A stretch of DNA of 36,786 bases. It comes from an uncultured Gammaproteobacteria bacterium (GTDB lineage: Bacteria > Pseudomonadota > Gammaproteobacteria > GCA-001735895). Below, in pieces: positions 17,847-36,685 of this stretch. Under the pieces are notes generated by a model. That model saw only the letters and a list, made by a program, of their open reading frames with translations. It made no database searches and was not told the origin of the DNA. Numbering within the stretch: the stretch's first letter is position 1; each line of letters opens with the position of its first letter. The stretch covers positions 1 through 36,786 of the forward strand of contig CAMYON010000026.1 of the NCBI GenBank assembly GCA_947260025.1. The letters run 5' to 3'. The translations under genes and the position numbers were made by a program.

Positions 17847-17867
17847 GGTATCTTTTTCGCTATCGGC

Positions 17868-19082: not shown

Positions 19083-19124
19083 ACAATCGGTTCTCGATAA
19101 AGTTGATGATGGAATCAAGCAGAT

Positions 19125-21452
19125 CTAGGAAGACTGCTTGTCCGACAGGATTATGGGAGGGTCGAAGGCCGTAACCCGCGGCAGTGGCGCATGGTAGCGC
19201 TCGATTTCGACCAGGCAGGTATGCGCGATCGGCCCCTGCGCGAGCTGCGAGGTACCGACATCAGGTGTCAGTACGTTTGGATTTCCGTGCTTGCACAAGC
19301 TGCCGGCGCGCCCGGGGTCTTCGGGGTCGTACCAGGCGCCGGTGCTCATTTGCACGACGCCCGGCATTACCTGGTCATCGATGACGACACCACCGAGACA
19401 GGCTCCCCGCTGGTTAAAAACGCGCACAACGTCACCGTTATCGAGGTTCCTGGCCTCGGCGTCGCGCGGATGCAGCATGATCGGTTCACGCTGGTTTATC
19501 TTGGCCGCACGGCAGTGGCTGCCGTGATCGAGCTGCGAATGGAGCTTGGTTTTCGGCTGGTTCGAAATTAAATGTAACGGGTAGTCGGCGGTATCGCCAC
19601 CAAGCCATTCGAGCGGCTCCATCCAGGTGGCATGACCGGGGCAATCGTCATAGTTAAAACCTGCCACGACTTCGGAGTAAATTTCAATTTTCCCCGACGG
19701 AGTCGGCAGCGGATTCGCCGCTGGATCGTCGCGAAAGGCTTCCAGCATCACGACCGGTTCGGCCGGTGGATCGGGCTTAAACCAGCCGGATTCCCTGAAT
19801 TCGGCGTAGGTTGGCATATCGATGCCTTTATCCCTGGAACGCTCGAGCGTCGCCTGGTAAATCGACTCGATCCATTGTCGTTCGTTACGACTCTCGGTGA
19901 ACACCGCCTCGAGGCCCATTTCGCGCGCAATACCGGCAAAAATATCGTAGTCGTTGCGGCTCGAGCCAACCGGTTCTATCGCCTGTTGCATATCGATCAC
20001 GTAGGGATCGCGTGGCGATATGGCGATGTCATTGCGCTCGAGTGTCGTGGTGCAGGGCAGCACAATATCGGAGTGTTTGGCCATGCTGTTCCAGCACCAG
20101 TCATTGACGATGATGGTGTCCGGTTTGCGCCAGGCCTCGAGCATCTTGTTCAGGTCCTGGTGATGGTGAAACGGGTTGCCACCCGCCCAGTAGACAAGGT
20201 GTATGTCAGGATACTGGTGGCTGCTGCCGTTGAATTCGAACGACGCGCCGGGGTGCAGCAGCATGTCGCTGATTCGAGCCACCGGTATGAACTTCGTAAT
20301 CTCGTTCTTGCCCTGGGGTAGCGACGCCCCGGGTATCTTGGTGTTGTGACCGCCGATGCCGTTGGTGGTCGAGTAGCCGAAAGTAATGCCGCCGCCCGGC
20401 AGTCCGATCTGACCCAGCATTGCCGCCACGGTAATCGCGGCCCAAAAAGTATGTTCGCCGTGATGCTGCCGGGTCAGGGACCAGCTGACCGAGATCATGG
20501 TTCGGTTTGCTGCCATACGGCGCGCAAGTTCGCGAATTCGATCCGCCGGCACGGCACAAATCGCGGACGCCCAGTCGGCGTTTTTGGCGACGCCGTCATC
20601 GACACCGTGCAGATATTTCAGAAACTCGTCCATGCCAACGGTGTATCGATCGAGAAAGCCCGTATTCGCCAGTTGCTCGTCAACCAGCGTTTTGGCAATC
20701 GCAATCAACATCGCCGTGTCGGTGCCCGGTCGGTTTGCCAGCCACTCGGCATTTAGCGAATCGTCGACATCCACCCGAATCGGGCCGACGTTGACAAACT
20801 CGATTCCGGCGTCACGGGCCTCGATCATACGCTCCCGCTGCACATGGCGACCGGTACCGCCGGCGTTTATCTGCCCGTTACTCCACGGCATACCGCCAAA
20901 AGCGACCACTAACTGGCCCTGATCTATGACCGAGCGCCAACTGGTGGTTTGCAGTAACAATTGCCAGAAGTCTCCCAGCACGTGCGGCACCATCGCTTCC
21001 GCGGCCGCAAAACTGTAGGTGCCGATGGAGCGGGTATAACCGCCGATGCATTTCAGGAATCGATGCAGCTGGCTTTGCGCATGATGAAAGCGACCGGCAC
21101 TGGACCAGCCGTAAGAACCGCCGAAAATGGCTTCGTTGCCAAACTGATTTTTTACCCGCGACAGTTCCCCGGCAACCAGCTTTTCAGCCTGTTCCCAGGT
21201 CACTTCGACAAACGGGTCGGCACCGCGCAAATGATTGCCGCTGCCGGGGCCCGATTCGAGCCAGCTTTTGCGGATCATGGGTGACTTTATTCTCGACGGC
21301 GCGTCGAGCACGTCGACGATCCCGGAGCCGATGGGCGACACATCGTTGTCCTCTTCGAAACCGTGCAACGCCCTGACGACACCGTTTTCAGTCTCGACCC
21401 GGTAGGTACCCCAGTGACTGGCGGTCAAGGGCAGATCGGTACCCCGCGGCAT
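19125..21452 (-). CDS. DMSO/biotin-sulfoxide-reductase-type molybdopterin oxidoreductase
   Basis: A 775-residue bis-MGD molybdoenzyme of the BisC/TorA/DorA subgroup, which reduces S- or N-oxides. There is no twin-arginine signal and no N-terminal iron-sulphur motif, so it is a cytoplasmic BisC-like form. The Mo ligand is in GGSYGWSSAGRFHH; Ser 118 aligns with the ligand Ser of Rhodobacter DMSO reductase. Others are PGGGITFGYSTTNGIGGHNT, WAGGNPFHHHQDLN and LPCTTTLERNDIA. It sits four bases from the ABC permease gene and 42 bases from GcvT-like A. Its presence in a betaine-type uptake operon suggests an oxide or sulfoxide (e.g. of a sulfonium or amine) as the substrate; this is inference. Confidence 0.85.
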   Translation of the reverse strand: MPRGTDLPLTASHWGTYRVETENGVVRALHGFEEDNDVSPIGSGIVDVLDAPSRIKSPMIRKSWLESGPGSGNHLRGADPFVEVTWEQAEKLVAGELSRVKNQFGNEAIFGGSYGWSSAGRFHHAQSQLHRFLKCIGGYTRSIGTYSFAAAEAMVPHVLGDFWQLLLQTTSWRSVIDQGQLVVAFGGMPWSNGQINAGGTGRHVQRERMIEARDAGIEFVNVGPIRVDVDDSLNAEWLANRPGTDTAMLIAIAKTLVDEQLANTGFLDRYTVGMDEFLKYLHGVDDGVAKNADWASAICAVPADRIRELARRMAANRTMISVSWSLTRQHHGEHTFWAAITVAAMLGQIGLPGGGITFGYSTTNGIGGHNTKIPGASLPQGKNEITKFIPVARISDMLLHPGASFEFNGSSHQYPDIHLVYWAGGNPFHHHQDLNKMLEAWRKPDTIIVNDWCWNSMAKHSDIVLPCTTTLERNDIAISPRDPYVIDMQQAIEPVGSSRNDYDIFAGIAREMGLEAVFTESRNERQWIESIYQATLERSRDKGIDMPTYAEFRESGWFKPDPPAEPVVMLEAFRDDPAANPLPTPSGKIEIYSEVVAGFNYDDCPGHATWMEPLEWLGGDTADYPLHLISNQPKTKLHSQLDHGSHCRAAKINQREPIMLHPRDAEARNLDNGDVVRVFNQRGACLGGVVIDDQVMPGVVQMSTGAWYDPEDPGRAGSLCKHGNPNVLTPDVGTSQLAQGPIAHTCLVEIERYHAPLPRVTAFDPPIILSDKQSS

Positions 21453-21456
21453 TTGC

Positions 21457-23532
21457 CTAAAACTCCGCGCTCAGCCCAAGCTCTTCCTGTCGCTTTTTAC
21501 TCCAGGCTTGCGTGAGTCGATCGGCGATGATGGCGATGATCGCCATGCCGATACCAGCGACCATGCCGACACCGAAGTCGCCATCGCCGAGACCGATGTA
21601 AACTTGCTGACCGAGCCCGTTGGTACCGACCAGCGCGGCAATCACGAGCATCGCGATACCGTACATAATGGTCTGGTTGAGCCCCAGCATCATGACCGGC
21701 AGCGCGAGCGGTAACTTAACCCGCCACAGCAACTGCCAGCGGGTGCAGCCAACGGCCGTTGCCGCCTCGATCACCGTGGCCGGTATATTTCTGAGCCCGT
21801 GCTCGGAATAGCGGATCGCCGGCACGATGGCGTAGGCCATGATCGCCAGCAGGGCCGTGAATTCACCGATTTTGAAGATCATGACGAACGGGATCAGGAT
21901 GACGAACAGCGGCATCGTCTGCAGCGTGTCGTTGATCGGGCGCAGGAAGGCTGAAACGCCGTCGAATTCGGAAGCCAGCACGCCGAGCGAGGCGCCGATG
22001 ACGAACGACAGCAACACGGCCAGTCCACAAAGGTAAATCGACAGCAGCGTTTGCGGCCAGACGCCCGCGATCACCAGGAATCCGAGGCCGGCAAGGGTTC
22101 CGATTGCGAGCCGCATTCCGCCGAGCTGCCAGCTGAGCAGGGTTGCCATCGCCAGCAGAGCCGGCCAGGGTAAGCGGGTCAGGCCGAAAAACAGCAGCGT
22201 GGCGCAGAAAGCGATCGCAATCGCCCGATTCAATCCGTGTCTGAAGGCAGCCCACAGCGCCAGCGCGACCGCAGCGACTGCATACAGCAGCTTCAACGCG
22301 CCGGTAAATTCAAAACCCCAGCTAAACGGGGTAATGGTCTGCTCGAGCCCCATCTTCACCGGCAGCATAGCGAAGAAGAAAGCCCAGGTTTTAATCAGGT
22401 TGATGGCCGCGGCATATTCGACGACGAGATAACTGACGCCATCATTCAAAATCTGCGCCGGATAAACCTGCCAGGCTTCCGGATAATTCGTCAGCAAAGG
22501 AATGACTTGCGCCAGCAGCGCGATGCCAAAACCCAGCGCCGCCACGCTAATCAAAAAGCGGTGCCTCGATAGGAAGCTCTGGTTGATTTTCGGTTCACCG
22601 GGTTCGGCGGTGGCCGCAGCGGCGGTAATCCGGTCCATCACCATCGCCATCAGCGCGATCACGATTCCGGCCAGCAGGCTCTCGCCGAACTGGGCCTTGC
22701 GCATGGTCGAGAGAACCTCCCAGCCGATGTCGGCGGTGCCGCCGATGATCGAGGCGATGATAACCATCGAAAAAGCCGCCATCGTGGTTTGATTGACGCC
22801 GAGCAGAATCTGGCGCAAGGCACTCGGTGTGCGCACGCGCCAAAACAGCTGGCGTGGCGTGGCGCCGGACATCATACCCGCCTCGATCACTTCCCCGGGG
22901 ACCTGTGCGAGGCCCAGCATCGTGTTGCGCACGGTTGGCGGAAACGCATAAAGCACGCTGGCAATCAGGCCGACCACCGGACCGAAACCAAACAGCAGCA
23001 GAATCGGCAGCAGGTAGGCGAAGGCCGGGACGGTTTGCAGCAGGTCCATGGTCGGCGAAATGATGCGCTCGGCCCGCTTCGAGTAGAAACCGAGTGTGCC
23101 GAGACCGAATCCGATCGCGACTGCCATTGGTACGGATATCACCACTAGCGCCAACGAATTCATCGATTCCGACCAGTAACCGATCACTACCATGTACAGA
23201 ATCGCGAGGAAGGTAAAAAGTGCCAGCCGCCAGCCGGAAACGACATAGCCGATATAGGTTAACAACGCCAGCGTGACCGACCAGGGCAACCAGTTGAGCA
23301 GGTCTCGAATGGCCGCCATCGGAACGTCGAGCGCCGCCGAGAAGGCGCGAAAAAACGGCCCGAAATTGTCGACACACCAATCCATGAAGACGTTCAGCCA
23401 GGGTGTGATCGGTATCACCCAGTCTTGCGGATAAGTAAACAACCAGGCGGCCGGCTCCCGCAACGCCAGAAATACCAGCGTCATCGCAATCAGACCGAGC
23501 CAGACCCAGTCGATGGTGCGTAGTCGAATCAA
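21457..23532 (-). CDS. ProW/OpuAB-type ABC transporter permease, tandem (two fused domains)
   Basis: A 691-residue inner-membrane protein holding two copies of the binding-protein-dependent permease domain in one chain. Each has the EAA-loop: copy one EAGMMSGATPRQLFWRVRTP (around 240-260), copy two EAATAVGCTRWQLLWRVKLP (around 590-610), both followed by a QTTMAAF/QTIMYGI segment. Most ProW proteins are about 280-350 residues, so this is a fusion that supplies both halves of the pore. It overlaps the ATPase gene by four bases. It should import quaternary amine or related osmolytes with the ATPase and binding protein. Confidence 0.88.
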   Translation of the reverse strand: MIRLRTIDWVWLGLIAMTLVFLALREPAAWLFTYPQDWVIPITPWLNVFMDWCVDNFGPFFRAFSAALDVPMAAIRDLLNWLPWSVTLALLTYIGYVVSGWRLALFTFLAILYMVVIGYWSESMNSLALVVISVPMAVAIGFGLGTLGFYSKRAERIISPTMDLLQTVPAFAYLLPILLLFGFGPVVGLIASVLYAFPPTVRNTMLGLAQVPGEVIEAGMMSGATPRQLFWRVRTPSALRQILLGVNQTTMAAFSMVIIASIIGGTADIGWEVLSTMRKAQFGESLLAGIVIALMAMVMDRITAAAATAEPGEPKINQSFLSRHRFLISVAALGFGIALLAQVIPLLTNYPEAWQVYPAQILNDGVSYLVVEYAAAINLIKTWAFFFAMLPVKMGLEQTITPFSWGFEFTGALKLLYAVAAVALALWAAFRHGLNRAIAIAFCATLLFFGLTRLPWPALLAMATLLSWQLGGMRLAIGTLAGLGFLVIAGVWPQTLLSIYLCGLAVLLSFVIGASLGVLASEFDGVSAFLRPINDTLQTMPLFVILIPFVMIFKIGEFTALLAIMAYAIVPAIRYSEHGLRNIPATVIEAATAVGCTRWQLLWRVKLPLALPVMMLGLNQTIMYGIAMLVIAALVGTNGLGQQVYIGLGDGDFGVGMVAGIGMAIIAIIADRLTQAWSKKRQEELGLSAEF

Positions 23533-24614
23533 TTCAAGACCTCTTCAACCGCGGCGGCATCCTCGCCATGGCCGTGATCCTCGTGCGCCAGCGCGGTGAT
23601 CACGCTGGTCGCGGTGACGACCCCGATCGGTACGCCATCCTGCGTCGCGACGATACCTTGCTTGTGCCTGGACAGCAGCGGAAGTAATTCCTCGACGCAG
23701 CAAGCGCTATCCCGTTCCGGCATCGTGGAGGTCGGACTCTGCTCCGGATCGAGCACATCGGTGGCTTTCAATACGCGCACCAGCGGCACGTCTTCGGTGA
23801 ACTCCGCGACGTAGTCGTCGGCCGGGTTGACGATTAACTCCGCCGGCGTGCCAACTTGCACTACCATGCCATCGCGCATGATCATCATCCGGTCCGCGAT
23901 CTTGAGCGCTTCGAGAAAATCATGGGTAATAAAAACGATCGATTTTTGCAGCGTTCTCTGTATACGCAGGAATTCATCCTGCATCTGTCGACGGATCAGT
24001 GGATCCAGCGCCGAAAACGGCTCGTCGAGAAACCAGAGCTCCGGCTCGACGGCGAGCGAGCGGGCAATGCCGACGCGTTGCTGCTGACCGCCCGAGAGCT
24101 GACGCGGATATGAGGTCTCGCGACCCTCGAGGCCGACGAGGTCGATGACGCGGCGAACCTTTTCGACCTGTTCGGCCATCGGCACACCCTGCAACGAGAG
24201 CGGAAAGGCGATATTGTCGAAAACGCTCAAATGCGGCATGAGGCCAAAATTCTGGAAAACCATGCCCATGTCATGCCGCCGAATGTCTATCAGCTCCTTG
24301 TCGGACTTTTTCAGCAGGTCTTCGCCATTGAGCAGGATCTCGCCGTGGGTCGGCTCGACCAGGCGCGACAGGCAGCGAACCACGGTCGACTTGCCGGAGC
24401 CGGACAGGCCCATTATGACGAAGATTTCGCCGACCTGCACATCGAAGCTGACGTCGACCGCTGCCGGTATTGCGCCATCGGCGCGCATGCGGGTGGAAAG
24501 CTCGGTCGCGTCGGCACTATCGACCTCGCCTTTGAAATAGGGGGACGCATCTGCGGCATAAACTTTCCAGACATGCCGGCAAGACAATTTGATGTCCGCC
24601 GCTACTTCATTCAT
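23529..24614 (-). CDS. ProV/OpuAA-type ABC transporter ATP-binding protein
   Basis: A 361-residue ATPase of the glycine betaine/proline uptake group. Walker A is GLSGSGKST at 69-77, signature LSGGQQQR at 173-180, Walker B LWFLDEP at 194-200, with the switch His in VFITHDFLEALK. An N-terminal extension before the ATPase core (residues 1-55) is typical of ProV. A C-terminal CBS-like region (IVATQDGVPIGVVTATSVI) occurs in osmoregulated OpuA. The gene overlaps the permease gene by four bases. A 135-base gap with a hairpin separates it from the binding-protein gene. Confidence 0.9.
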   Translation of the reverse strand: MNEVAADIKLSCRHVWKVYAADASPYFKGEVDSADATELSTRMRADGAIPAAVDVSFDVQVGEIFVIMGLSGSGKSTVVRCLSRLVEPTHGEILLNGEDLLKKSDKELIDIRRHDMGMVFQNFGLMPHLSVFDNIAFPLSLQGVPMAEQVEKVRRVIDLVGLEGRETSYPRQLSGGQQQRVGIARSLAVEPELWFLDEPFSALDPLIRRQMQDEFLRIQRTLQKSIVFITHDFLEALKIADRMMIMRDGMVVQVGTPAELIVNPADDYVAEFTEDVPLVRVLKATDVLDPEQSPTSTMPERDSACCVEELLPLLSRHKQGIVATQDGVPIGVVTATSVITALAHEDHGHGEDAAAVEEVLN

Positions 24615-24686
24615 TGCGCACTCCTGCTAATAGCCGGTTTTAATAGCCAATGCCGGCGAGACCAATCGGATACAGTGGCGTATTCA

Positions 24687-24707
24687 GGGCCGACATATTG
24701 CCGGCCC
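24687..24707 (-). promoter_or_regulatory. Hairpin between binding-protein and ATPase genes
   Basis: GGGCCG pairs with CGGCCC around a 9-base loop, in the gap between the binding-protein and ATPase genes. There is no U-tract, so it is not a classic terminator. Hairpins here can stabilise the upstream messenger so that binding protein is made in excess; this is the usual explanation in other ABC operons and is inference here. Confidence 0.35.
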
Positions 24708-24749
24708 CGACTCTGGATCTGGTCGATAAGGCCAGATTTAGTTACGAAG

Positions 24750-25691
24750 CTACTGCGCGGCCTTGGCCGCTTTTACCCAGGGGCTCCAGGTGGCTTCGTT
24801 GGCGGCAATCCATTCGGCGACGACTTCTTCGACCTTGCGGCCCTTGTTATCGATTTCGAGCATTAGTGCATTCTGAGTCGTATTGTCGATCGACATTACC
24901 TCGTAAAGCTTGGCGGCTCCGGGCCACTTCGAGGCGAAATCCTTGCTCTGGATCTTGTCGATCGAGGCTTGCTGGAAGCCGCAGGCCTTGCCCCGCTTCT
25001 GACCCGATTCCTCGACACATTCGCCCTGCGCCTTATCCCATTCGATCCAGTCGAAATCGTACTCGGCGAACAACCAGTGCGGTTGCCAGAACATCATCAG
25101 AATGGGTTGCTTGGATGCATAGGCACTCTTGACCTCGGCGATCATCGCACCTTCCGAGCCGCCGGCGACTGGTTGAAACGGTATGCCGATCTGGGCAACG
25201 ACATCCTTGGAACGGGTACCCCAGTCGGCCGGATAAGTGATCAAGCGTCCGTTCGGAAACGTGTCCGAGGCAGCGAATGCCTGCGCGCAATCGTAAAGCG
25301 CCTGGTAGCTGGGAAGGCCGGGACATTTTTCCTTCATGTAAGGCGGGAAGATCCAGCTTTCCCTGGGTTCCAGGCCAAGCGCACCTGTGACCACGATATC
25401 GCCTTTTGCCACCGCTTTCGGGTAAATGTCGCCGACGTTATTGGTCCAGGTTTCGGGCTGCACGTGCAAATCGCCCTGTGCTATCGCCGCGAACTGCGGG
25501 ACAGCCCCGGCGGTGATGTATTCGACATCGTAGCCGGCTTTCTTGAACAGCGAGCCGGTGATATGGGCCGAAATATGCTGGCCGGTCCATTCGTTGATCG
25601 GAATCTTGATTGCGTCGGCCGCCTGGGTGATAGCGGGCAAGCTGCTGGCAACCAGCAGGCTGCTGGCGACAACGAGGGATTTAAACTTCAT
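24750..25691 (-). CDS. OpuAC/ProX-type quaternary-amine substrate-binding protein
   Basis: A 313-residue periplasmic binding protein. Residues 1-24 are a Sec signal peptide (ends LPAITQA); the mature protein begins ADAIKIPINEWTGQH, the classic first strand of the OpuAC family, which binds betaine, proline betaine, choline or carnitine through aromatic boxes. Many Trp and Tyr residues (ESWIFPPYM, FWQPHWLFAEYDFDWIEW) fit this. Two Cys pairs could form disulphides. AGGAG precedes the ATG. It is the first gene of the six-gene leftward operon. The exact ligand is not decidable by eye. Confidence 0.88.
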   Translation of the reverse strand: MKFKSLVVASSLLVASSLPAITQAADAIKIPINEWTGQHISAHITGSLFKKAGYDVEYITAGAVPQFAAIAQGDLHVQPETWTNNVGDIYPKAVAKGDIVVTGALGLEPRESWIFPPYMKEKCPGLPSYQALYDCAQAFAASDTFPNGRLITYPADWGTRSKDVVAQIGIPFQPVAGGSEGAMIAEVKSAYASKQPILMMFWQPHWLFAEYDFDWIEWDKAQGECVEESGQKRGKACGFQQASIDKIQSKDFASKWPGAAKLYEVMSIDNTTQNALMLEIDNKGRKVEEVVAEWIAANEATWSPWVKAAKAAQ

Positions 25692-26580: not shown

Positions 26581-26988
26581 ATGTCGATCCGAGGCAGTTG
26601 TTTATGCGGTAAAGTCAGCTACGAAGTCACCGGCCCTTATCCGACAGCCTGGCATTGCCATTGTTCGCAGTGCCGGCGGGCGCACGGCGCGCCCTGCGGT
26701 TCCTATCTCGGCGTCGAACCGGAAAATTTCAAATGGCTATCGGGTGAAGAGCTGGTCAAGTCTTACGCGCCGGAAGACGGTGGTTTTCTGTTTTGCAGCG
26801 AATGCGGGTCCAACGTCGCCGGTTCTTGGAAGGGTGAAATCTGCCAGGTGACGTTCGGCACGATGGAGGGCGACCCGGAAGCCCATCCGCGGGAACACAT
26901 TTTCGTCGGTTCCAAAGCATCCTGGATCGATATCGGCGATAACCTGCCGCAACACGACGAGTATCCCCCCGACTTCGATGCCAGCTGA
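26581..26988 (+). CDS. GFA/CENP-V-domain protein (formaldehyde-activating-like)
   Basis: A 135-residue zinc protein of the Gfa family, whose best-known member is described as accelerating formation of S-hydroxymethyl-glutathione from formaldehyde. Zinc-binding cysteines are visible: CLCGKVSYE (7, 9), HCHCSQC (26, 28, 31 region) and FCSECGS (72, 75 region). It lies between the TetR gene and a GcvT-fold gene; demethylation reactions release formaldehyde, so detoxification or capture is a reasonable role, but many GFA-domain proteins have other functions. A GGAG lies before the ATG. Confidence 0.85.
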   Translation: MSIRGSCLCGKVSYEVTGPYPTAWHCHCSQCRRAHGAPCGSYLGVEPENFKWLSGEELVKSYAPEDGGFLFCSECGSNVAGSWKGEICQVTFGTMEGDPEAHPREHIFVGSKASWIDIGDNLPQHDEYPPDFDAS

Positions 26989-26995
26989 CGAAGAT

Positions 26996-28126
26996 ATGAA
27001 CGATTCGAGTCGTCCCGGACGGACTGACACCGTGCGCATCGGGGCACGACGTTTCGAGCAATCGCCTTATTACGCGTGTTACGCGAACCCGGCCACGGTG
27101 CTCGGGGTTGCGGCCGAGCGTTTTTACCCGGCGGACATCGGCGAGGACAAGAATGAAATTTACCGGGCGCTACGCAGCGAGGCCGCGCTGTTCGACGTGC
27201 CGGAAAAGCCGTGGCAAATCGAAGGGCCGGACGCGGTGCCTTTCCTCGAGCGAATTTTTGCGCGCCGCGTCGGCACCCTGCCCGAAGGACGCGGCCGTTA
27301 TGCCATCGCCTGTACCGCCGAGGGCGGCACCTACATGGACGGCATCCTGTTCAGGCTCGGGGAAAACCGCTTCTGGTACGTGCAACCCGACGGCGCTTTC
27401 GAACAATGGCTGCTGGCGCATCGAACCGGGTTCGACGTGACTATTACCGATCCGCATTCCCGGGTGCTGCAGCTGCAGGGCCCGAACTCGATGCGGATAA
27501 TGGCGGACGCCACCGGCGGCGCGATCGACGACGGCATGAAATACTTCGCTGCGGGTTTTTTCGATATCGGGGGGCAACGCCTGTACGTCTCGCGTACCGG
27601 CTGGACCGGCGAGCTGGGTTACGAGATTTACTCCGACGGCGCGATCACCGACCACCCGCGGCTGTGGAACGACCTGTTCGAGGCCGGGGCCGCGCACGGC
27701 ATGGTCTTCGGCAGTCTCGCCGCGATGGGAGTTCGGCGGATCGAGGCGGGCATCCTCGACAACCTGTCGGACTTCGATCCGTCGATCACGCCTTTCGAGG
27801 CGGGCCTCGAGGCCTTCATCGACCTCGACAAGGAAGACGATTTTATCGGCCGCGATGCGCTGCGCAACGCGGACCGGCGAACGCGGCTGTACGGCATCAA
27901 GTGCCCGTCGATCACGCCGGTGAATGGCGCCAAAATTCTGGACGCCCAGGGGCCGGTCGGTCGCCTCACCGGGGCCGCCTGGTCTCCCGGTCTCGACTGC
28001 GGCATCGGTATCGTCCGCTTCGACGAACCCGGCGACTGGGCCGGCAGGACATTATCTATAAGTACGCCACAAGATCACCTCGTCGACTGCGAGGTTCTGA
28101 CGCTACCGTTCTACGACCGGGCCTAG
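26996..28126 (+). CDS. GcvT-fold aminomethyltransferase/demethylase-like protein B
   Basis: A 376-residue GcvT-fold protein, paralogous to the one at 17868. Shared blocks include FDVPEKPWQIEGPDAVPFLE, GRYAIACTAEGGTYMDGIL, DPHSRVLQLQGPNS, YVSRTGWTGELGYEIY and RRIEAGILDN. It should use tetrahydrofolate to accept a one-carbon group, but the donor is unknown. The ATG at 26996 (MNDSSRPGRTD) follows the GFA stop by seven bases; a start at 26978 would overlap it. The codon usage is more GC-rich than in the left of the window. It converges on the selenoprotein gene. Confidence 0.8.
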   Translation: MNDSSRPGRTDTVRIGARRFEQSPYYACYANPATVLGVAAERFYPADIGEDKNEIYRALRSEAALFDVPEKPWQIEGPDAVPFLERIFARRVGTLPEGRGRYAIACTAEGGTYMDGILFRLGENRFWYVQPDGAFEQWLLAHRTGFDVTITDPHSRVLQLQGPNSMRIMADATGGAIDDGMKYFAAGFFDIGGQRLYVSRTGWTGELGYEIYSDGAITDHPRLWNDLFEAGAAHGMVFGSLAAMGVRRIEAGILDNLSDFDPSITPFEAGLEAFIDLDKEDDFIGRDALRNADRRTRLYGIKCPSITPVNGAKILDAQGPVGRLTGAAWSPGLDCGIGIVRFDEPGDWAGRTLSISTPQDHLVDCEVLTLPFYDRA

Positions 28127-28166: not shown

Positions 28167-29402
28167 CTACCACCCCGACCCGGAACTTCCGGGCAGCGGG
28201 CCCTCGGACCAGAAGCGCGGCGTGATCAGCGACATGTCGACGACCTGGCGCAGCACCCGGTCCTCCGACTCGAGCGCCACCGCCTCGAGCCACAGCAGCA
28301 ACAGCCCGGCCTTCGACTCTTCCCAGAACCACTTGCCCAGCAGCTCGAAATCGTCGATGCCGTCGCGGTGCGTGCGCGTCTCCGTGTAGTAAGCCTGCAG
28401 GTCCTCGGCCACGAGCTTGAGCGCCGGGATCGGCGACAGTCCCTTGCGCGGGCTCCTGGGCCGCTCGCCTTTGACGAAGGCGGCGATGTACGGCGCCAGA
28501 CCCGCAATCTCGAGTTCGCTGGCCCCCACCGTGGTACGCCCGCGTGCCGCGACCGCCGCCTCGTAGGCCGGGCGCAATTCCTCGACCTCGGCCTGAACCT
28601 CGGCCAGTAATGCATCGACATCGCCGATATCGTCCGTCGAGTACACGAGCCCGGGCGGCAGCGCATAGCCCATGCGCCCGCCTTTAACCGGGATGACGTC
28701 GGGAAAATCCTCCAGCACCGGGCCGGACGGCGCGTCGAACAGCTCGAACGCCGCGCGAATGACCTTCAACTGGTATTCGGGATCGTTGGGTTTGCCCATC
28801 GGGCGCCCCATTGGGAAATTGAGCCACAGCGCGCGCGGCGGCTTGACCAACTCGATATGCTCGCGCACGAATCCGACCAGGACCGTCGCGAAACCCTCCG
28901 CCTCGAAGTAATGTGCCAGCCCGCTCACGGCGCGCGTGCAAAAAGGTCAGACGGGTATCAGGAATACCGTGTTGACGTTATCGGCTTTCATCCGCGCCGC
29001 AACCTCGAGGGCCGACTTTTCCATGTCATTCGGATCGGCGGCGCCCATGAAGGTGTAATGCTCGTCGGCCACCAAGCCGATCTCGCCGGCCTCTGCCATC
29101 TCTTCCAGCCGGTCGAGCGGGATGATCGCGTTCAAATCCTGCTGCCAGGCGGTGCGGTCGTATTCGACCGCGACGTGCGTCATCACCAGGTCGCGATCGT
29201 GCTTACCGATAACACGATGATTGCGCGCGAGCCACGAAAACGGCTTGTCGCCGCGCCTCGAGACGGCCGCCGACGAGACGATCGATATTCGACGCTGTTT
29301 CGCGGGCACGGGTTCGGACCAGCCGGTTCGGCCGACCTCGAACTCCTTGAGTTCTTCGATGAAACCGCGCCCCACGGCCGGCATCTCTACAATTCTTACC
29401 AT
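28167..29402 (-). CDS. GrdB/PrdB-family selenoprotein 1 (in-frame UGA as Sec)
   Basis: One 411-residue protein, seen by ordinary calling as two frames split at UGA 28949-28947. The frames join as LIPV-Sec-PFCTRAVSGL, Sec 152 with Cys 155 in a Sec-x-x-Cys redox motif. Residues 1-240 match the D-proline/glycine reductase selenoprotein B superfamily: IVSSAAVSRRGDKPF, THVAVEYD, QDLNAIIPLDRL, YTFMGAADP, then after Sec PPRALWLNFPMGRPMGKPND. The last 160 residues are an extension shared with selenoprotein 2 but not with PrdB. A strong AGGAG lies before the ATG at 29402. SelA, SelB and tRNA-Sec lie near. It is likely a cytoplasmic redox enzyme; the substrate is unknown. The pyruvoyl partner (GrdE/PrdA) is not in the window. 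Confidence 0.88.
28919..28935 (-). promoter_or_regulatory. SECIS-like hairpin of selenoprotein 1
   Basis: Bases 12 to 28 after the UGA fold by hand as G-C, C-G, a G·G mismatch, then three pairs C-G, G-C, C-G, closing a five-base loop CGUGA. The apical GU lies at bases 19-20 after UGA, about where it is in E. coli fdhF (GU at 20-21 by my count). The sequence is identical to that of selenoprotein 2 over 26 bases. Confidence 0.65.
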
Positions 29403-29449: not shown

Positions 29450-29539
29450 AATCGTTTACTCTGTACGGGTTTTTGAATATATTTCGATAGATTAAATCGA
29501 ATTATATAAATAAATTCGTAAAGATGTAACGAATTTTGA
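29450..29539. promoter_or_regulatory. Divergent promoter/operator, copy 2
   Basis: This region between selenoprotein 1 and the alcohol dehydrogenase matches the TetR-region block at 25768-25857 without gaps. The inverted repeat at 29479-29505 is ATATTTCGA, nine bases, TCGAATTAT (8 of 9 arm bases pair). A candidate right-facing -10 is TGTAAC (29525-29530); both copies end in the same 11-base string ACGAATTTTGA. A candidate left-facing -10 TATATT overlaps the left arm. It is probably bound by the same TetR protein. Confidence 0.6.
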
Positions 29540-29602
29540 TTGCCCAGGACATAACACCTGGACCGAAATCAACTGACCAACAGATAATACCGAACCACCT
29601 GA

Positions 29603-29635
29603 TTAGCTGCCAGACACCCTCGAGTGTCTGGCTAA
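29603..29635 (+). promoter_or_regulatory. Stable hairpin in the leader of the ADH-selAB transcript
   Basis: CCAGACAC (29610-29617) pairs with GTGTCTGG (29624-29631) around CCTCGA, with TTAG/CTAA extending the base of the stem. It lies between the proposed transcription start near 29536 and the dehydrogenase start. No U-tract follows, so it is not an obvious terminator; it could be a protein-binding site, a stability element or an operator at the DNA level. Confidence 0.45.
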
Positions 29636-29691
29636 CCTACAGCGATTCAGAGCGACCAGACCGGCGGATAGCGCCAAACAGGAGTGATGCC

Positions 29692-30888
29692 GTGAACACC
29701 ATTCAAAACTCGATCCCCGCAGCGGATGCGGATTTGCTCGCGCCCCAGGATTTCACCTTCCCGGTACCGATTGCCTACGGTCCCGGTCGCCTGGCTGAAA
29801 TCGGACAGCGCTGCGCCGATATGGGACTGTCCAACCCGTTGATCGTGACCGATCGCAGCAGCCGCGATCTGCCGTTCATCGCGCAGTTGCAGCAGTATCT
29901 GGCCGAGGCCGACCTGCGGTCCGGCCTGTTTTTCGAGATCTCGCCCAACCCGCGCGACGATGAAATCGGCGCCGGCCGCGCCATGTTCGTCGACGGCCAG
30001 CACGACGCGATTATCGCAATCGGCGGCGGCAGCGCGATGGATGGCGGCAAATCGATCTGCCTGACGGCAAACAACGATATCGATTTGTGGGCGTTCGAAT
30101 TCGAACAGCCGGTGCCGGAGATTGGCCGAAGCTTTCCGGCCCTCATCACCATCCCCACCACCGCCGGGACCGGCGCCGAAACCGAAAGCACCGCCATGGT
30201 CACCGACGTCGGGCAAGGCATGAAATTTTGCGTCTGGCATCCCGGTCTCAAACCTTCGCTGGCCCTGCTAGACCCCGAGTTGACCATCGGCCTGCCGGTC
30301 AACCTGACCGCCTGGACCGGCGCTGATGCGATGATCCATAACATCGAGGCCTACCTGGTACCTGGCTTTAACCCGCTATGCGACGGACTTGCGCTCGAAG
30401 GGCTTGCACTGGTATCCAAATGGCTGCCGATCGTGGTCCGCGAACCGCAAAACATGGCCGCCCGCGGCGGCATGCTAATGGGCTCCTGCCTCGGCGGCAT
30501 CGCGTTCCTGAAGGGGCTGGGCCTGGTGCACGCCATTTCGCATATGGTCGGCGCCGAGTACAACACCCACCACGGCCTGACCAATGCCATCATTCTGCCG
30601 GTGGTGATGCGTTACAACCTGCCCGGAATGGACGACAAGGTAAAGCGCATGGCCGATGCGATGGGATTGCGAGAGCATTCGACCGAGGCTTTCATTACCG
30701 AACTCGAACGCCTGCTGGACGATATTGAAATTCCGAGGTCGCTAAGCGAGATCGGCGTACCCGAGGACTGCGCGCAGCGCATCGCCGAGAAAGCGGTCAA
30801 GGACAGCGCCGCGGGCACCAACCCGCGCGAGGCCAGCGTGGAACAGATCAGGAAATTAACCGAGGCTGCGATCACCCAGGCGCGCTAA
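29692..30888 (+). CDS. Iron-containing alcohol dehydrogenase family protein
   Basis: A 398-residue NAD(P)-dependent type III alcohol dehydrogenase. Family features are the dinucleotide site IIAIGGGSAMDGGKSI, IPTTAGTGAETESTAMV, and the metal ligands: Asp in GADAMIHNIEAY, His in HAISHMVGAEYNTHHG with the second and third His there. GTG at 29692 is preceded by AGGAG; the open frame continues back to a TTG at 29536, but the extension has no family similarity. Its likely role is reduction or oxidation of an aldehyde or alcohol, perhaps formaldehyde/methanol-like or the carbon chain of the imported compound. It is first in a unit with selA and selB. Confidence 0.88.
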   Translation: MNTIQNSIPAADADLLAPQDFTFPVPIAYGPGRLAEIGQRCADMGLSNPLIVTDRSSRDLPFIAQLQQYLAEADLRSGLFFEISPNPRDDEIGAGRAMFVDGQHDAIIAIGGGSAMDGGKSICLTANNDIDLWAFEFEQPVPEIGRSFPALITIPTTAGTGAETESTAMVTDVGQGMKFCVWHPGLKPSLALLDPELTIGLPVNLTAWTGADAMIHNIEAYLVPGFNPLCDGLALEGLALVSKWLPIVVREPQNMAARGGMLMGSCLGGIAFLKGLGLVHAISHMVGAEYNTHHGLTNAIILPVVMRYNLPGMDDKVKRMADAMGLREHSTEAFITELERLLDDIEIPRSLSEIGVPEDCAQRIAEKAVKDSAAGTNPREASVEQIRKLTEAAITQAR

Positions 30889-30934: not shown

Positions 30935-32329
30935 ATGCCTATTATCGATGCCCCCAACAAGTTGCCATCTGTCGACCGGCTCCTGAACGATCCGGAGACA
31001 GCCCCGCTGGTGCAAGACCATGGCGCGCCCCTCGTCACCCGCTGCGCGCGCAGCGTACTGGCTGCGGCACGTGAACAGGTGCTTGCCGGAGAATCGTTCG
31101 AATCACGCGATCTCGTCGTCAACCTGCGCGAGGAGGTCGCCCGGGCGCTGCGCCCCTCGTTGCGCCGGGTCATCAACCTGACGGGAACGGTGCTGCACAC
31201 CAACCTGGGACGCGCCGCGTTACCCGAATCGGCGATCGAGGCGATGGCCGAGATTGCTCGCGGCGCCAGCAATCTCGAGTTCGACCTCGGCGCAGGCAGG
31301 CGCGGTGATCGCCACCAGCATGCCGCAGCCCTGCTGCACGAATTGACCGGTGCTGAGTCTGCGCTAGTGGTCAACAACAACGCGGCCGCCGTGTTGCTGA
31401 CGCTCAACAGCCTGGCGTTACGCAAGGAAGTCCCGGTTTCGAGGGGCGAGCTGATCGAGATCGGCGGCGCCTTTCGCATGCCCGACATCATGGCGCGGGC
31501 GGGCTGCAAACTGGTCGAGGTCGGTACCACCAACCGCACGCACGCAAAAGATTTCGAGGCAGCGATCGGTCCAAAGACCGCGCTATTGATGAAGGTGCAC
31601 ACCAGCAACTACGAGATTCAGGGATTCACCAAACAGCTCGCCGAAGCGGAACTTGCCAGGATCGCGCATGCGCAGGATCTGCCACTGGTAACCGACCTCG
31701 GCAGCGGCAGCCTGATCGACCTGGAGGTCCACGGTTTGCCGCATGAACCCACCGTCCGCGAAATGCTCGACGCGGGCGCCGACCTGGTGACCTTCAGCGG
31801 CGATAAAATCCTCGGCGGGCCGCAGGCCGGGATCATCGCCGGCCGTCGCGACCTCATCGAAAAGATCAGGCGCAACCCGATAGCGCGCGCCCTGCGGCCC
31901 GACAAGATTACGCTAGCCGCACTCGAGGCGGTGCTGCGGCTGTACACCGATTCGGCGCGTCTCGCCGACAGGCTGCCGACCCTGCGCTGGTTGACCCGCG
32001 ACGCGACGGAGATCGAGCAGTTGGCAACGCGCCTGGCGCCGGTCGTGCAGCGCCATTGCGAAGGCTTCGAGGTAAGCGTCGAGCGCACCCGGGCCCAGGT
32101 GGGCAGCGGCGCATTGCCGATCGACAGCCTCGAGAGCGCGGCGTTAAAACTCACCCGATCCGAAGTACGCCGGCCCGGCAAGGCGCTGCAGGAACTTGCC
32201 AGGAGGTTCCGTCAACTACCGATACCCGTGATCGGGCGCGTCGCCGACGACGCGCTGTGGCTCGACCTGCGCTGTCTCGAAGACGAAGCGGAATTCGTCG
32301 ACAACCTGCGGGGATTGACGAGCGCATGA
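30935..32329 (+). CDS. selA: L-seryl-tRNA(Sec) selenium transferase
   Basis: A 464-residue PLP enzyme that converts Ser-tRNA(Sec) to Sec-tRNA(Sec) with selenophosphate. The family core is present: [19 protein letters not shown], the Asn/Thr contacts in [12 protein letters not shown], and the PLP-binding Lys 291 in [14 protein letters not shown]. The length is normal for bacterial SelA. It ends in ATGA overlapping the selB start, so the two are coupled. It lies 46 bases after the dehydrogenase. No selD (selenophosphate synthetase) is in the window, so it must be elsewhere. Confidence 0.95.
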
Positions 32330-34263
32330 TCGTCGCAACGGCTGGTCACGTGGATCACGGCAAGACCGAGCTGGTCAAGGCGCTGACGGGTACGGATACC
32401 GACCGCCTGCCCGAGGAGCAGGCACGCGGCCTGTCGATCGACCTGGGCTTCGCCTATCTAACCCTGCCCGATCAAACGTCCCTCGGGTTCGTCGACGTGC
32501 CGGGGCACGAGAAGTTCATCCGTAACATGCTGGCCGGTGTCGGCGGCATCGACCTGGGTTTACTGGTGGTGGCCGCTGACGATGGGGTCATGCCGCAGAC
32601 GCGCGAGCATTTTGCGATCCTCGATTTGCTCGGCATCGATCGCTGCGTGGTGGCAATCACCAAGATCGATCGGGTCGACGACGATCGCATCCTCGAAGTG
32701 CAAGACGAGGTAGAGACCCTGCTCGCTATCGCGGGGCGCAAAGACACGCCCGTGTATCCCGTCTGTGCACCGGAAAACCTTGGGCTCGATACGCTTAAAA
32801 CCGCGCTGCAGGAGCAGGCGCATCGAGCGAACAACCACGATATCGGTGGCTGTTTCCGCATGTCGATCGACCGGGCATTCACGCTCAAGGGGGTTGGCCT
32901 GGTCGTAACCGGAATGGTGTTCGCCGGCGCGGCCGCTATCGACGACAACCTGCTGTTGTCGTCCGACGGGACGCCGGTACGGGTACGCGGGATTCGGGCG
33001 CACGATGACACGAGCGATCGTGCACGGGCGGGCGAGCGCTGCGCAATCAACATCGTCGGGCGCGGTGTCAGCGAAAACTCGGTGAGCCGGGGCGACTGGT
33101 TGATGCACTCGAACCTGCATGCGCCGACGCGCAGAATCGACGTCGATTTACGCGTGCTCGACGCCGAATCGAAAGCATTGAAACACTGGACGCCGACACA
33201 CCTGCATATCGGCGCGGACCACCTCGCGGCACGCGTTGCGGTACTCTCCGGCGGCAGCATCGCCGCGGGAGACCGGGGACTGGCGCAGCTGGTTTTGGCG
33301 CGGGATGCCTTCGTTGTACACGGCGATCGTTTCGTACTGCGCGACCAGTCTGCGCAACGCACCATCGCCGGCGGTCATGTCGTCGACCCTTTCTCGCCGA
33401 GGCGCGGCCGTGCCCGACCGAACCGAATCGCCGCACTGCAGGCGATGAATCGCCGCGATCCACGTGACGCGCTCGAGGCGCTGGCCGAGCTGAGCGAGGC
33501 CGGAGTGCCGCTCACAGCTTTCGCTACCTCGTTTAATCTGCCGGCAACTCGAATCGATGCCATCGTCGAATCGCTTTCACTCGAGCGAATCGAACATCAC
33601 TCCGAGGGGTGGGTCTTCAGCGCAACCCGATGGCAGGGTTTGCTCGACCGTATCGAACAGACGGTCGGGGACTTTCACGACACCAGTCCCGAACTTGCCG
33701 GAGCGAGTCTCAGGGATATTCAGCTGGCACTGAAACCCCACCTCGAGACGCCCGTACTCGAAGCCGCGGTCGATGCATTGGCCAACGAAAATCGCCTCGG
33801 CCGAAGGGGTGCACGGTTACATTCGCCAGCGCACGAGATCCGGGTCTCCGAGCACGACCGGCAACTCTGGACACGGGCGGTCGACCTGCTGGCGCCGCAA
33901 TCGGGCAGCCCGCTGAGCCTGCACCAGGCGGCGGAAGCGCTGCAGGTCGAGCGGAAAGTTCTGGAAACTTCGCTGAAACACGCTATCCAGTCCGGAGAGA
34001 TGGTGCCGTTGGCAAAAAACCGCTACGCACCGACATCCTATGTCGCGAAACTGGGAGGCGCCGCCGAAACACTGGCCGGGAAAACTGCCGACGGTTACTT
34101 TACCGTGGCCGAGTATTGTGTACAGACCAAAACTGGGCGAAACTTCGCCATCGATTTACTGGAGTACTTCGATCGCCTGGGCTTTACCGAGCGCTCAGGC
34201 AACAACCGTCGCATCAGGCGTCCTGCCGCGACCGTCTTCGCGATCGACGATGCAGGCTCATGA
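32326..34263 (+). CDS. selB: Selenocysteine-specific elongation factor
   Basis: A 645-residue translation GTPase that carries Sec-tRNA(Sec) to the ribosome at SECIS-marked UGA. G motifs: G1 GHVDHGKT (7-14), G3 DVPGHEKF (57-64), G4 TKID (112-115). After the three beta-barrel domains come the C-terminal winged helices that bind SECIS RNA (around 470-645; e.g. [18 protein letters not shown] and [20 protein letters not shown]). The open frame begins at 32056 inside selA, but the true ATG at 32326 overlaps the selA stop (ATGA). The stop codon 34261-34263 is followed directly by the tRNA-Sec gene. Confidence 0.95.
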
Positions 34264-34359
34264 GGAAGAGGATCGCACCCCGGTGGGGCGCCCGGTCTTC
34301 AAATCCGGTGAGGGGCGTACCACGTCCCTGGTGGGTTCGACTCCCACGCTCTTCCGCCA
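34264..34359 (+). tRNA. selC: tRNA-Sec (UCA anticodon)
   Basis: A 96-base tRNA with the long acceptor, D and variable arms of bacterial tRNA-Sec. Acceptor GGAAGAG pairs with CTCTTCC, and an eighth pair (34271 and 34348) is a G·G mismatch by my alignment. The anticodon loop CTTCAAA (34297-34303) holds TCA. The T arm is GTGGG-TTCGACT-CCCAC. The discriminator G and CCA are encoded. It begins on the base after the selB stop, with no spacer. Confidence 0.93.
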
Positions 34360-34489: not shown

Positions 34490-35680
34490 ATGGTGCGCCT
34501 CACTGGTATCCCCGAACCCGAGCGCAGCTACATCGCTGAGCTGGAATGTACTCCCTATGCGCACAAGCCATTTGCTCCGGCAGTCGACCCCGATCAGAGA
34601 CATGTCGCGATCGTCTCATCTGCCGGGCTGATTATTCGAGGCCAACGCCCAACGCTTGCGAACGATACGGGTTACCGGCCGATCCCTTCGGCGGTAGCGG
34701 ACAACGATATTCTCTGCAGCCATGTTTCCGTTAATTTCGATCGCAGCGGTTTCCAGCAGGACCTCAACGTGATGCTGCCGCGCGATCGATTAAAAGCACT
34801 TGAAACCGAGGGCAGCATCGGTAAAGCGGCCGATACCCACTACGCATTCATGGGTGCAACCCATCCAGATAAACTCGAAGACAAGGCGCGTGAAGTCGGC
34901 AGATCGATGCTGGCCCTGGGAGTAAATACCGTCGTCCTGGCGCCGGTGTGACCCAACTGCACGCGCGCCGTGAGCGGGCTGGCCCATTTCCTCGAAGACG
35001 AAGGTTTGTCGACCGTCGTTGTAGCCTTAGTGCGCGAGCACGCGGTGAAGATGCGACCACCGCGGGCACTGTGGGTGCCGTTTGAATTAGGCCGCCCGTT
35101 CGGGACACCCAACGATATCGAACTGCAACAGCGGGTTCTGAAAACGGCGTTGTCATTGCTGGACGAGCCTGGTCCTGAACCGCTATTACGAGATTATGCC
35201 GAAGAAGCCGATTATCGGGATGATGATGCGGGCTGGGTGTTTCCTGGGCTCGATACTGGGTCAGTAACCGCAGAATCCGAGTCTGCACTCCCCATTTGGC
35301 ACGAGGCTCGAAAGCGTTCCGGTCGAACTACCTTCGGTATCAGCGATTTATCACCTGCAGCGGCGATCGAATACATCAACCGTTACCATTCGACTGATCC
35401 GATGCCGAACCCGAAAGGGATGGCGCCGGTATCTCGCGCGCGATTTGCCATCGCCGATATCAAGGTGCTTTACTTTGAAACGGCACTGGCCGATGGTGGT
35501 CATCCGTCTTCTTACCAACTCAACGAATGGTTCTGGAACCAGACCCTTGCCGGCAAGATGATCCTCGATTTCCAGGATGCCGCACGTGTCGCCAATGATA
35601 AAAATCTACGCTTAATCGCGGGCTCCCTGGTTCCCGCGGAGCGGACTTACGAGTATCTGCAAAAGACCGGCGAGGAATAA
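34490..35680 (+). CDS. GrdB/PrdB-family selenoprotein 2 (in-frame UGA as Sec)
   Basis: A 396-residue protein split by UGA at 34949-34951 into two frames that join as LAPV-Sec-PNCTRAVSGL, Sec 154 with Cys 157. N-terminal blocks IVSSAGLIIRGQRP, SHVSVNFDRSGFQQDLNVML, YAFMGATHPDKL and, after Sec, PPRALWVPFELGRPFGTPND match selenoprotein 1 and the PrdB superfamily. The C-terminal 150 residues share YxET and WFW motifs (VLYFETAL, NEWFWNQTLAG) with the extension of selenoprotein 1. It follows tRNA-Sec by 130 bases. A weak AGG precedes the ATG. It could be a second subunit of a heteromer with selenoprotein 1 or a paralogue for another substrate. Confidence 0.88.
34963..34979 (+). promoter_or_regulatory. 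SECIS-like hairpin of selenoprotein 2
   Basis: The same hairpin as in selenoprotein 1, bases 12-28 after the UGA: G-C and C-G pairs, a G·G mismatch, then three G/C pairs and the loop CGUGA with the apical GU. It lies inside the codons for RAVSGL, so it is part of the coding sequence. Confidence 0.65.
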
Positions 35681-35730: not shown

Positions 35731-36513
35731 TCAGAACCTCAGGGACAGACAGGACATCCCGCCATCCAGTTTGGCGCACTCGCTATTATTTATTTCGCGC
35801 ACCTCGTAACCTGCCTCGAGCAGATGATCACGAGTCCGGGGGAACCCGGCAGGCATCATGACAAACTGGTTGAAACGGATCGTGTTTGCTGCGGCTTCCT
35901 CGCCTTCGCAGGTGTGGATCACTCGATAATTCTCAAAGCAACCGGAAGCATCCAGGCGCCTGGTCGACAGAATGGTATCCGCATCCAGCAGCGAGCAATC
36001 TGTTTTGAAGTGCAGCACACCCTCGGGCGTCATTACCTCGCGCAGCGGGTAACCGAACTGACCGACTATTTCCGCCAGCTCCGCGACGCCAGCCTGATCG
36101 GTTCGGGCAGAACGACCCACCAGGATTTCGCGTGGCGTTGTGAGAATATCACCTCCCTCGATAAAGCCAGGCCCCTCGATTTCGAACACCTGGTCATAGA
36201 AATCGCGCAATACCGGGGCCATTTCGCCGACTTCCCCGAGACGAGACGGTGCGCCCGGGCGCATCAGGATGGCAACTTCAGGCAGGCAAAGCGCGACGTC
36301 TTCGACAAAGACGGAATCCGGGTAGGCCTCGACGGCAGGCAACTCGGTAACACTGGCACCGGCTTCTTTAAGCGTCGCGACATAGTGCGCGTGATCCCTG
36401 AGCATCTGGGCATGATCCGGGTTCCCCAGATCCTCAGCTCTCAAACCATTGACAATACTTTGAGCGGGCAGCCGCGTGATGGCCCGGCTAAACTCGTAAC
36501 AAGGTTCGCTCAA
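35731..36513 (-). CDS. Dimethylarginine dimethylaminohydrolase (DDAH)-like amidinohydrolase
   Basis: A 260-residue guanidino-hydrolase of the DDAH/arginine deiminase fold. DDAH converts dimethylarginine to citrulline and dimethylamine. Motifs are VFVEDVALCLPEVAIL, the substrate/catalytic block EGPGFIEGGDIL, the His in LHFKTDCSLLD and the nucleophile Cys in KLDGGMSCLSLRF near the C-terminus. It is full length for the short bacterial form. It is convergent with selenoprotein 2; whether it belongs to the same pathway (release of methylated amine) is unclear. Confidence 0.85.
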   Translation of the reverse strand: MSEPCYEFSRAITRLPAQSIVNGLRAEDLGNPDHAQMLRDHAHYVATLKEAGASVTELPAVEAYPDSVFVEDVALCLPEVAILMRPGAPSRLGEVGEMAPVLRDFYDQVFEIEGPGFIEGGDILTTPREILVGRSARTDQAGVAELAEIVGQFGYPLREVMTPEGVLHFKTDCSLLDADTILSTRRLDASGCFENYRVIHTCEGEEAAANTIRFNQFVMMPAGFPRTRDHLLEAGYEVREINNSECAKLDGGMSCLSLRF

Positions 36514-36556: not shown

Positions 36557-36658
36557 GGGGGACAGTATACCTATTTACTCGTACTCCAGGGACCGTCTAC
36601 AAACAGGTATACTGTCCCAGGAAAGCCGGAAACGTCTACAAATAGGTATACTGTCCCC
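36557..36658. repeat. REP/RAYT-style repeat cluster
   Basis: Three copies of a short element in about 100 bases. GGGGACAGTATACCTATTT (36557-36575) faces two copies in the opposite direction: AAACAGGTATACTGTCCC (36601-36618) and AAATAGGTATACTGTCCCC (36640-36658). The last two form a direct repeat with a 39-base step, each preceded by CGTCTAC. The layout resembles the intergenic repeats that REP-associated tyrosine transposases mobilise. No transposase is in the window. Confidence 0.65.
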
Positions 36659-36685
36659 GGCAAGCCCCCGGAAAGCCGAGAAAGT

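Follow-up and report, generated by a model that had tools for sequence, protein, structure and literature searches.

A PrdB-like gene with an in-frame UGA in an uncultured gammaproteobacterium: a predicted selenoprotein of a probable distinct, stand-alone subfamily

In the 36,786-nucleotide stretch of an uncultured gammaproteobacterial genome analysed here (the window), two minus-strand open reading frames abut at a TGA codon, which raises the question of whether they are separate genes or the two halves of one selenoprotein gene, and, if so, what kind of selenoprotein this is. Translation of the region 28,167–29,402 (minus strand) by genetic code table 11 gives two ORFs; when the TGA at 28,947–28,949 is read as selenocysteine (Sec), the region is a single frame of 411 codons, having one TGA and ending with TAG. 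The encoded protein, P1 (P0001, Sec-containing PrdB-like protein 1, 411 residues), carries this TGA as codon 152, and Sec152 is part of a UxxC motif in the sequence FLIPVUPFCTRAVSGL. The first-pass annotation had proposed that the two frames are joined at UGA 28,949–28,947 without a shift, and this is what the 411-residue frame shows. The start at 29,402 gives a Met1 that is invariant in 14 homologous sequences and conserved in more than 90% of 48, and AGGAGAGGAG, just 5' of it, is in agreement with this start.

The TGA is found at the Sec site in all 94 rows of an alignment of P1, its paralogue P2 (see below) and relatives from several phyla, with one UPxC motif in each row and no Cys at the site; this count covers the best 80 of 189 relatives from named genomes together with P1, P2 and 12 same-genus rows, such that a Cys form is possible among the other 109. 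The 94 rows correspond to 92 distinct genes (L004 equals L023, and L005 contains L025); L073 is left out of alignment A3 and L080 out of alignment A4. Purifying selection acts on the part of the frame that follows the TGA: the pN/pS values there are 0.07–0.21 in all 11 pairs chosen for this comparison, with values of 0.02–0.37 upstream.

The codons following the TGA are constrained in the manner of a predicted SECIS element, which lies within the P1 coding sequence at 28,915–28,939 (minus strand; nucleotides 11–35 from the T of the TGA), and it is this constraint that provides the evidence, two folding registers being in competition. Codon +4 after the TGA is ACG in 91 of the 94 rows (gene-wide share 0.26), codon +5 is CGC in 92 (0.34) and codon +6 is GCC in 90 (0.33), while codon +8 is always NGC, though the residue varies between C, G and S, and codon +9 is always GNG, though the residue varies between G, V and A. 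The synonymous entropy is lowest at residues 157, 156 and 158 (0.06–0.10, with a median of 0.93 over 68 conserved columns). Of the 94 rows, 86 contain the 9-mer ACGCGCGCC without a mismatch, whereas no ungapped window in the rest of the gene exceeds 0.50; the 9-mer is also exact in 5 of the 7 AT-rich genes (G+C <0.42), for which codon use predicts 0.0009. The consensus pairs calculated with RNAalifold are 15-16/30-31 and 18-20/26-28, closing a loop of nucleotides 21–25; these five pairs are possible in 93–94 of the 94 rows and the outer pairs 11-12/34-35 in 88–90. When the sequences are folded singly, 47 adopt the consensus register, 39 the competing register and eight neither, with mean pair probabilities of 0.47 and 0.43 for the two registers. 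In the competing register nucleotides 15–17 pair with 21–23, extended to 14–17 with 21–24, and the pair 14-24 is broken in 22/94 rows. The consensus register accounts for the fixed G30 and for the free positions 25 and 29, whereas the competing register has no need of G30. There is almost no covariation in the stem because the stem hardly varies. The bulge and the G-U in the loop are features that we take to resemble those of the SECIS element of Escherichia coli fdhF.

Three genes for Sec insertion lie between P1 and P2, namely selA (L-seryl-tRNA(Sec) selenium transferase; 30,935–32,329, plus strand; TIGR00474, 591 bits, cut-off 268), selB (Sec-specific elongation factor; 32,329–34,263, plus strand, the start being our choice; TIGR00475, 415 bits, cut-off 242) and a tRNA-Sec gene with anticodon TCA (34,264–34,355, plus strand; RF01852, 72.7 bits, gathering threshold 47). 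The selD gene is outside the window in the same genome, as a SelD fusion (G000:C2:24774-25688), and SelD is found above the cut-off in 21 of the 23 carrier genomes, the exceptions being G025 and G410. Among 31 draft genomes of the same genus, the Sec gene and tRNA-Sec occur together in ten, the gene only in one (G023), the tRNA only in one (G026) and neither in 19 (Fisher p=2.6e-6). In this count the tRNA-Sec match of G006 (47.9 bits against a cut-off of 47, close to sub-cut-off matches of 46 bits) is taken as absent, and a distant match without a stop in G022 is excluded from the Sec genes; with G006 counted as present, the numbers are 10, 1, 2 and 18 (p=1.5e-5). The tRNA-Sec of G026 (C196:239-329) is clear (70.4 bits), and this genome has no match to the P1 family. 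Formate dehydrogenase was considered as another user of Sec; none of the three FdhA-like matches in the source genome has a TGA, nor do any among the matches listed in the 21 genomes searched.

The shared TGA, the synonymous constraint, the Sec machinery and the co-occurrence with tRNA-Sec together give strong support to the view of the first-pass annotation that a selenoprotein with a UxxC motif is hidden here by an in-frame UGA. Two other explanations of the TGA have to be considered. P1 could be a pseudogene in two fragments, or the TGA a real stop or a sequencing error, as the two ORFs of the table 11 reading would suggest; this is ruled out by the TGA being shared between the rows and by the purifying selection downstream of it, it is also at odds with the synonymous constraint and with the presence of the Sec machinery, and it is given next to no weight. 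UGA 152 could also be decoded as another residue, by Trp insertion or plain read-through, for which the open frame, and nothing more, can be cited; the alignment of the site with Cys in the short relatives and with Sec in PrdB, as well as the co-occurrence of tRNA-Sec with the gene, make such decoding exceedingly improbable. From the sequence data it is therefore almost certain that P1 is one intact, full-length selenoprotein gene with Sec inserted at UGA 152. In the proposed mechanism, SelB with Sec-tRNA would decode UGA 152, guided by the predicted RNA element within about 35 nucleotides downstream.

The second protein of this kind, P2 (P0002, Sec-containing PrdB-like protein 2; 34,490–35,680, plus strand), has 396 residues, with Sec154 in the sequence PVUPNC, and is 39% identical to P1. 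Its gene adjoins the tRNA-Sec gene and has the same SECIS codons as P1. P1 and P2 are the sole family matches in the 3.59-Mb draft genome.

What family do these proteins belong to? Joined P1 matches the PrdB model TIGR04483 with E=1.4e-22 over residues 33–220, at 80.4 bits against the 300 needed, and scores 33.3 bits against TIGR01918, the GrdB superfamily model (cut-off 65.45); the GrdH and GrdF models match with E about 1e-11. P2 scores 101.9 bits with TIGR04483 and 39.5 bits with TIGR01918, both below cut-off, and P1 and P2 are below the cut-off of every matching NCBIfam model. The Pfam GRDB family (PF07355) is matched by joined P1 above its gathering threshold (31.6 versus 22 bits), over residues 80–148 only. 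The first-pass annotation had seen a superfamily match on both sides of the UGA; this applies to the upstream half (TIGR04483 E=8.2e-14, PF07355 2.1e-8) but not to the downstream half alone, which gives E=0.041 with TIGR04483 and no Pfam match. It had also expected standard annotation to call two unrelated hypothetical proteins. This is likely for the downstream half only, as the upstream half alone passes Pfam GRDB (34.3 versus 22 bits); since P1 and P2 both stay below every NCBIfam cut-off, current annotation probably splits genes of this kind.

Residues 244–411 of P1 (about 170 residues; 28,170–28,673, minus strand) form a predicted C-terminal, all-helical domain without a convincing Pfam or PDB relative. 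The model of this domain is helical with a pLDDT of 89, and that of the whole protein has a pLDDT of 87.7. Residues Glu272, Arg289, Asp334, Glu341 and Trp358 are invariant in a 36-row alignment, and in 48 rows all of these are invariant except Arg289 (>90%). In a Pfam search of this domain no family matched more than four of the 36 members, the best single match being DUF1192 (E 0.0005, one member). A Foldseek search with the whole model and with the C-terminal domain gave no match at E<=0.001, and among the solved structures there is no PDB sequence relative of P1.

The relationship with PrdB and GrdB would also be explained if P1 were a true subunit of a D-proline, glycine, sarcosine or betaine reductase, as the homology to PrdB and to GrdH/GrdF and the Sec position, which is as in PrdB, could be taken to mean. 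PrdB acts together with PrdA. In the 94% complete draft genome G000, however, neither a GrdA partner nor a partner of the GrdE/PrdA type (PF09338) is found, and both are absent in 22 of the 23 carrier genomes. The exception is a Desulfobacterales, in which the two genes are together; in this genome (that of L068) a GrdA gene with one TGA lies beside the gene of a PF09338 protein on the opposite strand (G412:C1:3874310-3875645), and a long PrdB-like gene is also present. The missed NCBIfam cut-offs and the extra C-terminal domain likewise speak against a reductase subunit, which is considered very unlikely; a canonical proline, glycine or betaine reductase was rejected in view of the sub-cut-off scores and the absent partners. 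The label 'GrdB/PrdB-like' is hence upheld as a statement of remote homology and not as one of membership, the 411 residues of P1 also comparing poorly with the 238 positions of the PrdB model. Judged from its sequence, P1 falls outside the canonical GrdB and PrdB proteins, which corrects the earlier family label, and it very probably represents a distinct, stand-alone and so far Sec-only subfamily of the PrdB/GrdB superfamily. The conjunction of the two proposals, Sec insertion and a distinct stand-alone subfamily, is likewise put forward with high confidence.

In the phylogenetic tree the 92 long Sec forms are on one side of a branch with support 100/98; P1 is in a group of 44 (100/99), in which Gamma- and Alphaproteobacteria are mixed, and P2 in a separate group of 15 (97/92). 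The tree is midpoint rooted, L004 and L005 are left out as duplicates, and the D-proline reductase PrdB of Peptoclostridium acidaminophilum (L134) is a very long branch (3.6 changes per column), the place of which in the tree is unsure. On the other side of the supported branch are the proteins of about 300 residues annotated in Proteobacteria as 'glycine/sarcosine/betaine reductase selenoprotein B family protein' (for example Roseomonas, L135), which have a P1-like domain with NCPVCHQ aligned with the Sec site and which, compared with P1, are shorter and mostly have Cys. Among these short relatives (29 loci, including two pairs that are the same gene) the site was read in 23, with Cys in 21 and TGA in two (L106 and L107); it was not read in L121, L126, L128, L132, L133 and L134, the last of these having been read separately (TGA at residue 151). 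L106 and L107 are gammaproteobacterial, with the TGA in AMUPVCHQ, and are likely to be Sec versions of this mostly Cys-containing branch. A phylum sample has matches in 16 of 398 genomes, with the long form in the source genome only, and a class sample in 8 of 369, with long forms in this genus only; both samples miss carriers that are known from the scan of named genomes. A cultured carrier of the long gene is Roseovarius aestuarii KCTC 22174, where the gene is at L065:10001-11233 and is accompanied by a SelD fusion, selB, selA and tRNA-Sec.

When compared with the known systems, P1 shares 28.9% identity over residues 3–219 with PrdB of P. acidaminophilum, in which Sec151 is part of UGTC, also a UxxC motif; the PrdB family, with its 238 positions, is without the C-terminal domain of P1. 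The proteins of the GrdB type (GrdB, GrdF and GrdH; PF07355, TIGR01918) are homologous to P1 residues 80–148, up to the Sec, but they span about 435 positions and, by the alignment ranges, have their Sec region in the final quarter; the Sec of P1 is at position 152 of 411. According to a recent review, they have a UxxCxxC motif (PMC13188914). They form a complex with GrdA; P1 has UxxC only, and no GrdA. In marine data, 42 UxxC sequences named 'proline reductase PrdB' were reported from the Sargasso Sea in 2005 (PMC1088965) and 235 (pfam07355), plus 110 Cys homologues, from the GOS survey in 2008 (PMC2398784), where 'PrdB' ranks with the most abundant selenoprotein families of the ocean surveys; reviews of 2022 and 2026 place PrdB under TIGR04483 (PMC9312934, PMC13188914). 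The likeness of these marine proteins to P1 consists of the predicted Sec, the UxxC motif and the marine origin. They differ in the 110 Cys homologues of the 2008 set, as compared with 0/94 in the long branch, and the available parts of these accounts make no mention of a C-terminal domain, neighbours or missing partners, which are features of the P1 branch. Compared by description, the 2005 and 2008 sets probably include this branch, and many of their sequences may belong to it. The kind of protein is thus already known; on the long branch itself, its C-terminal domain, its SECIS element and its neighbours, the literature searches yielded nothing. A clostridial-type proline reductase would be an odd find in the ocean; P1 belongs to a Sec-only branch that has an extra domain, mostly lacks the partner subunits and is associated in one clade with choline/betaine and one-carbon genes.

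The neighbouring genes provide some indication of the function. Divergent from P1 is an iron-containing alcohol dehydrogenase gene (29,536–30,888, plus strand, the true start probably being further in), which adjoins P1 also in L059 and is otherwise seen only in L051, 10 kb away. Convergent with P1 is a gene for a GcvT-like protein (26,978–28,126, plus strand; below all NCBIfam cut-offs), and a GFA-domain protein is encoded at 26,581–26,988 (plus strand). Choline/betaine-type ABC transporter genes occupy 21,457–25,691 (minus strand), comprising a permease (21,457–23,532; above the choline permease cut-off), an ATPase (23,529–24,614; named from its sequence, without a family search) and a binding protein (24,750–25,691; below its cut-offs). 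Next to these, at 16,989–21,452 (minus strand), is a trio of genes for a BisC-family molybdoenzyme (19,125–21,452; TIGR00509, 941 bits, under the cut-off of 1018), a second GcvT-like protein (17,868–19,118; below all NCBIfam cut-offs) and a CitE/HpcH-like lyase (16,989–17,846; below the NCBIfam cut-offs, above that of Pfam). The names of these neighbours are at the level of homology, the permease alone of these window genes being above an NCBIfam cut-off.

Similar genes are found near P1 homologues elsewhere. In L043, L056 and L060, from oceanic Rhodobacteraceae, GcvT, BisC, CitE, P1 and SelD genes are in a run on one strand, with gaps of 2, −4 to 9, 122 and 155–222 nucleotides in this order, and genes for BetA-like (in L043 above an NCBIfam cut-off), BetI and ProX proteins are nearby; these three loci are near-identical in the tree and therefore represent about one lineage. 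L027 and L050 have ProX, ABC ATPase, BetI, BetA-like and GcvT-like genes in common. By tblastn, a GcvT-like gene is near in nine of the 43 P1-clade loci, BisC in eight and ProX in six, and none of these in the other 37 loci; many of the 80 loci are short, and the osmolyte-type neighbours occur in a minority. The recurrent neighbours in the 37 loci outside the P1 clade are short-chain dehydrogenase (6), CoA-transferase III (4) and enoyl-CoA hydratase (4). A divergent BisC gene starts 149 nucleotides from P1 in G003, on the contig to which L025 also belongs, and in G025 BisC, CitE and a P2-type gene are on one contig. Within the genus, BisC at no less than 68% identity is present in 7/11 genomes with the Sec gene versus 4/20 others, and CitE in 2/4 P1-type genomes versus 3/27 others.

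The choline/betaine transporter and the GcvT-, BisC- and CitE-like neighbours suggest that P1 functions in methylated-osmolyte catabolism. Its predicted architecture would be that of a PrdB-like α/β domain, with the Sec-x-x-Cys motif opening a helix, together with its own helical C-terminal domain. Sec152 could act as the nucleophile, its target being a methylated osmolyte, probably of the quaternary amine type and akin to choline or betaine. It would break a bond next to the onium group, and Cys155, together with a cellular thiol system, would then resolve the selenocysteine. Since quaternary amines form no Schiff base, this would account for the enzyme doing without a pyruvoyl subunit. Homarine catabolism was also considered and was dropped, the literature having given a single trimethylamine paper.

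It is also possible that P1 is a generic thiol-disulfide or peroxide-reducing selenoprotein, its UxxC motif serving redox housekeeping and the catabolic neighbours being coincidental. The UxxC motif is common among thiol redox selenoproteins, according to a table in the Sargasso Sea study (PMC1088965), a weak phmmer match across the motif is to a glutaredoxin-like protein (E=0.53), and the neighbours differ between lineages; on the other hand, the sequence relation is to PrdB and GrdB, and the tight GcvT-BisC-CitE-P1 run and the divergent BisC gene in G003 favour a metabolic step. Such a redox role is regarded as rather doubtful, and quaternary-amine or osmolyte chemistry, which is read from the neighbours in part of one clade, as a tentative assignment that is slightly better placed. 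The wider proposal of a new selenoenzyme class, namely a single-polypeptide PrdB-like enzyme with Sec in every lineage seen, which would cleave choline/betaine-type osmolytes in ocean bacteria without GrdA, a pyruvoyl subunit or acetyl phosphate, and which may be why the Sec machinery is kept and travels with it as a cassette, is speculative and on balance unlikely to hold in full.

The long gene often lies near sel genes: among the 80 loci the counts are 37 for selB, 33 for selA, 13 for SelD and seven for an NDH-SelD fusion, and tRNA-Sec is present in 27 of 39 loci chosen from the 80 (22/25 in the P1 clade and 5/14 outside). SelA of the window is 56–73% identical to that of most P1-clade loci having SelA, with 78 and 94% for the closest genomes and 43–45% for L048, L053, L062 and L063. 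The mixing of Alpha- and Gammaproteobacteria in the P1 group, these SelA identities and the shared sel genes suggest that the long Sec gene moved together with the sel genes as a cassette; some of the metagenome-assembled genomes may be misbinned.

Near the end of the window, a dimethylargininase-like gene (35,731–36,513, minus strand; below the curated cut-off) is convergent with P2. At about 36,565–36,660 (plus strand), aggtatactgtccc is seen by eye twice and once inverted, possibly a small repeat element.
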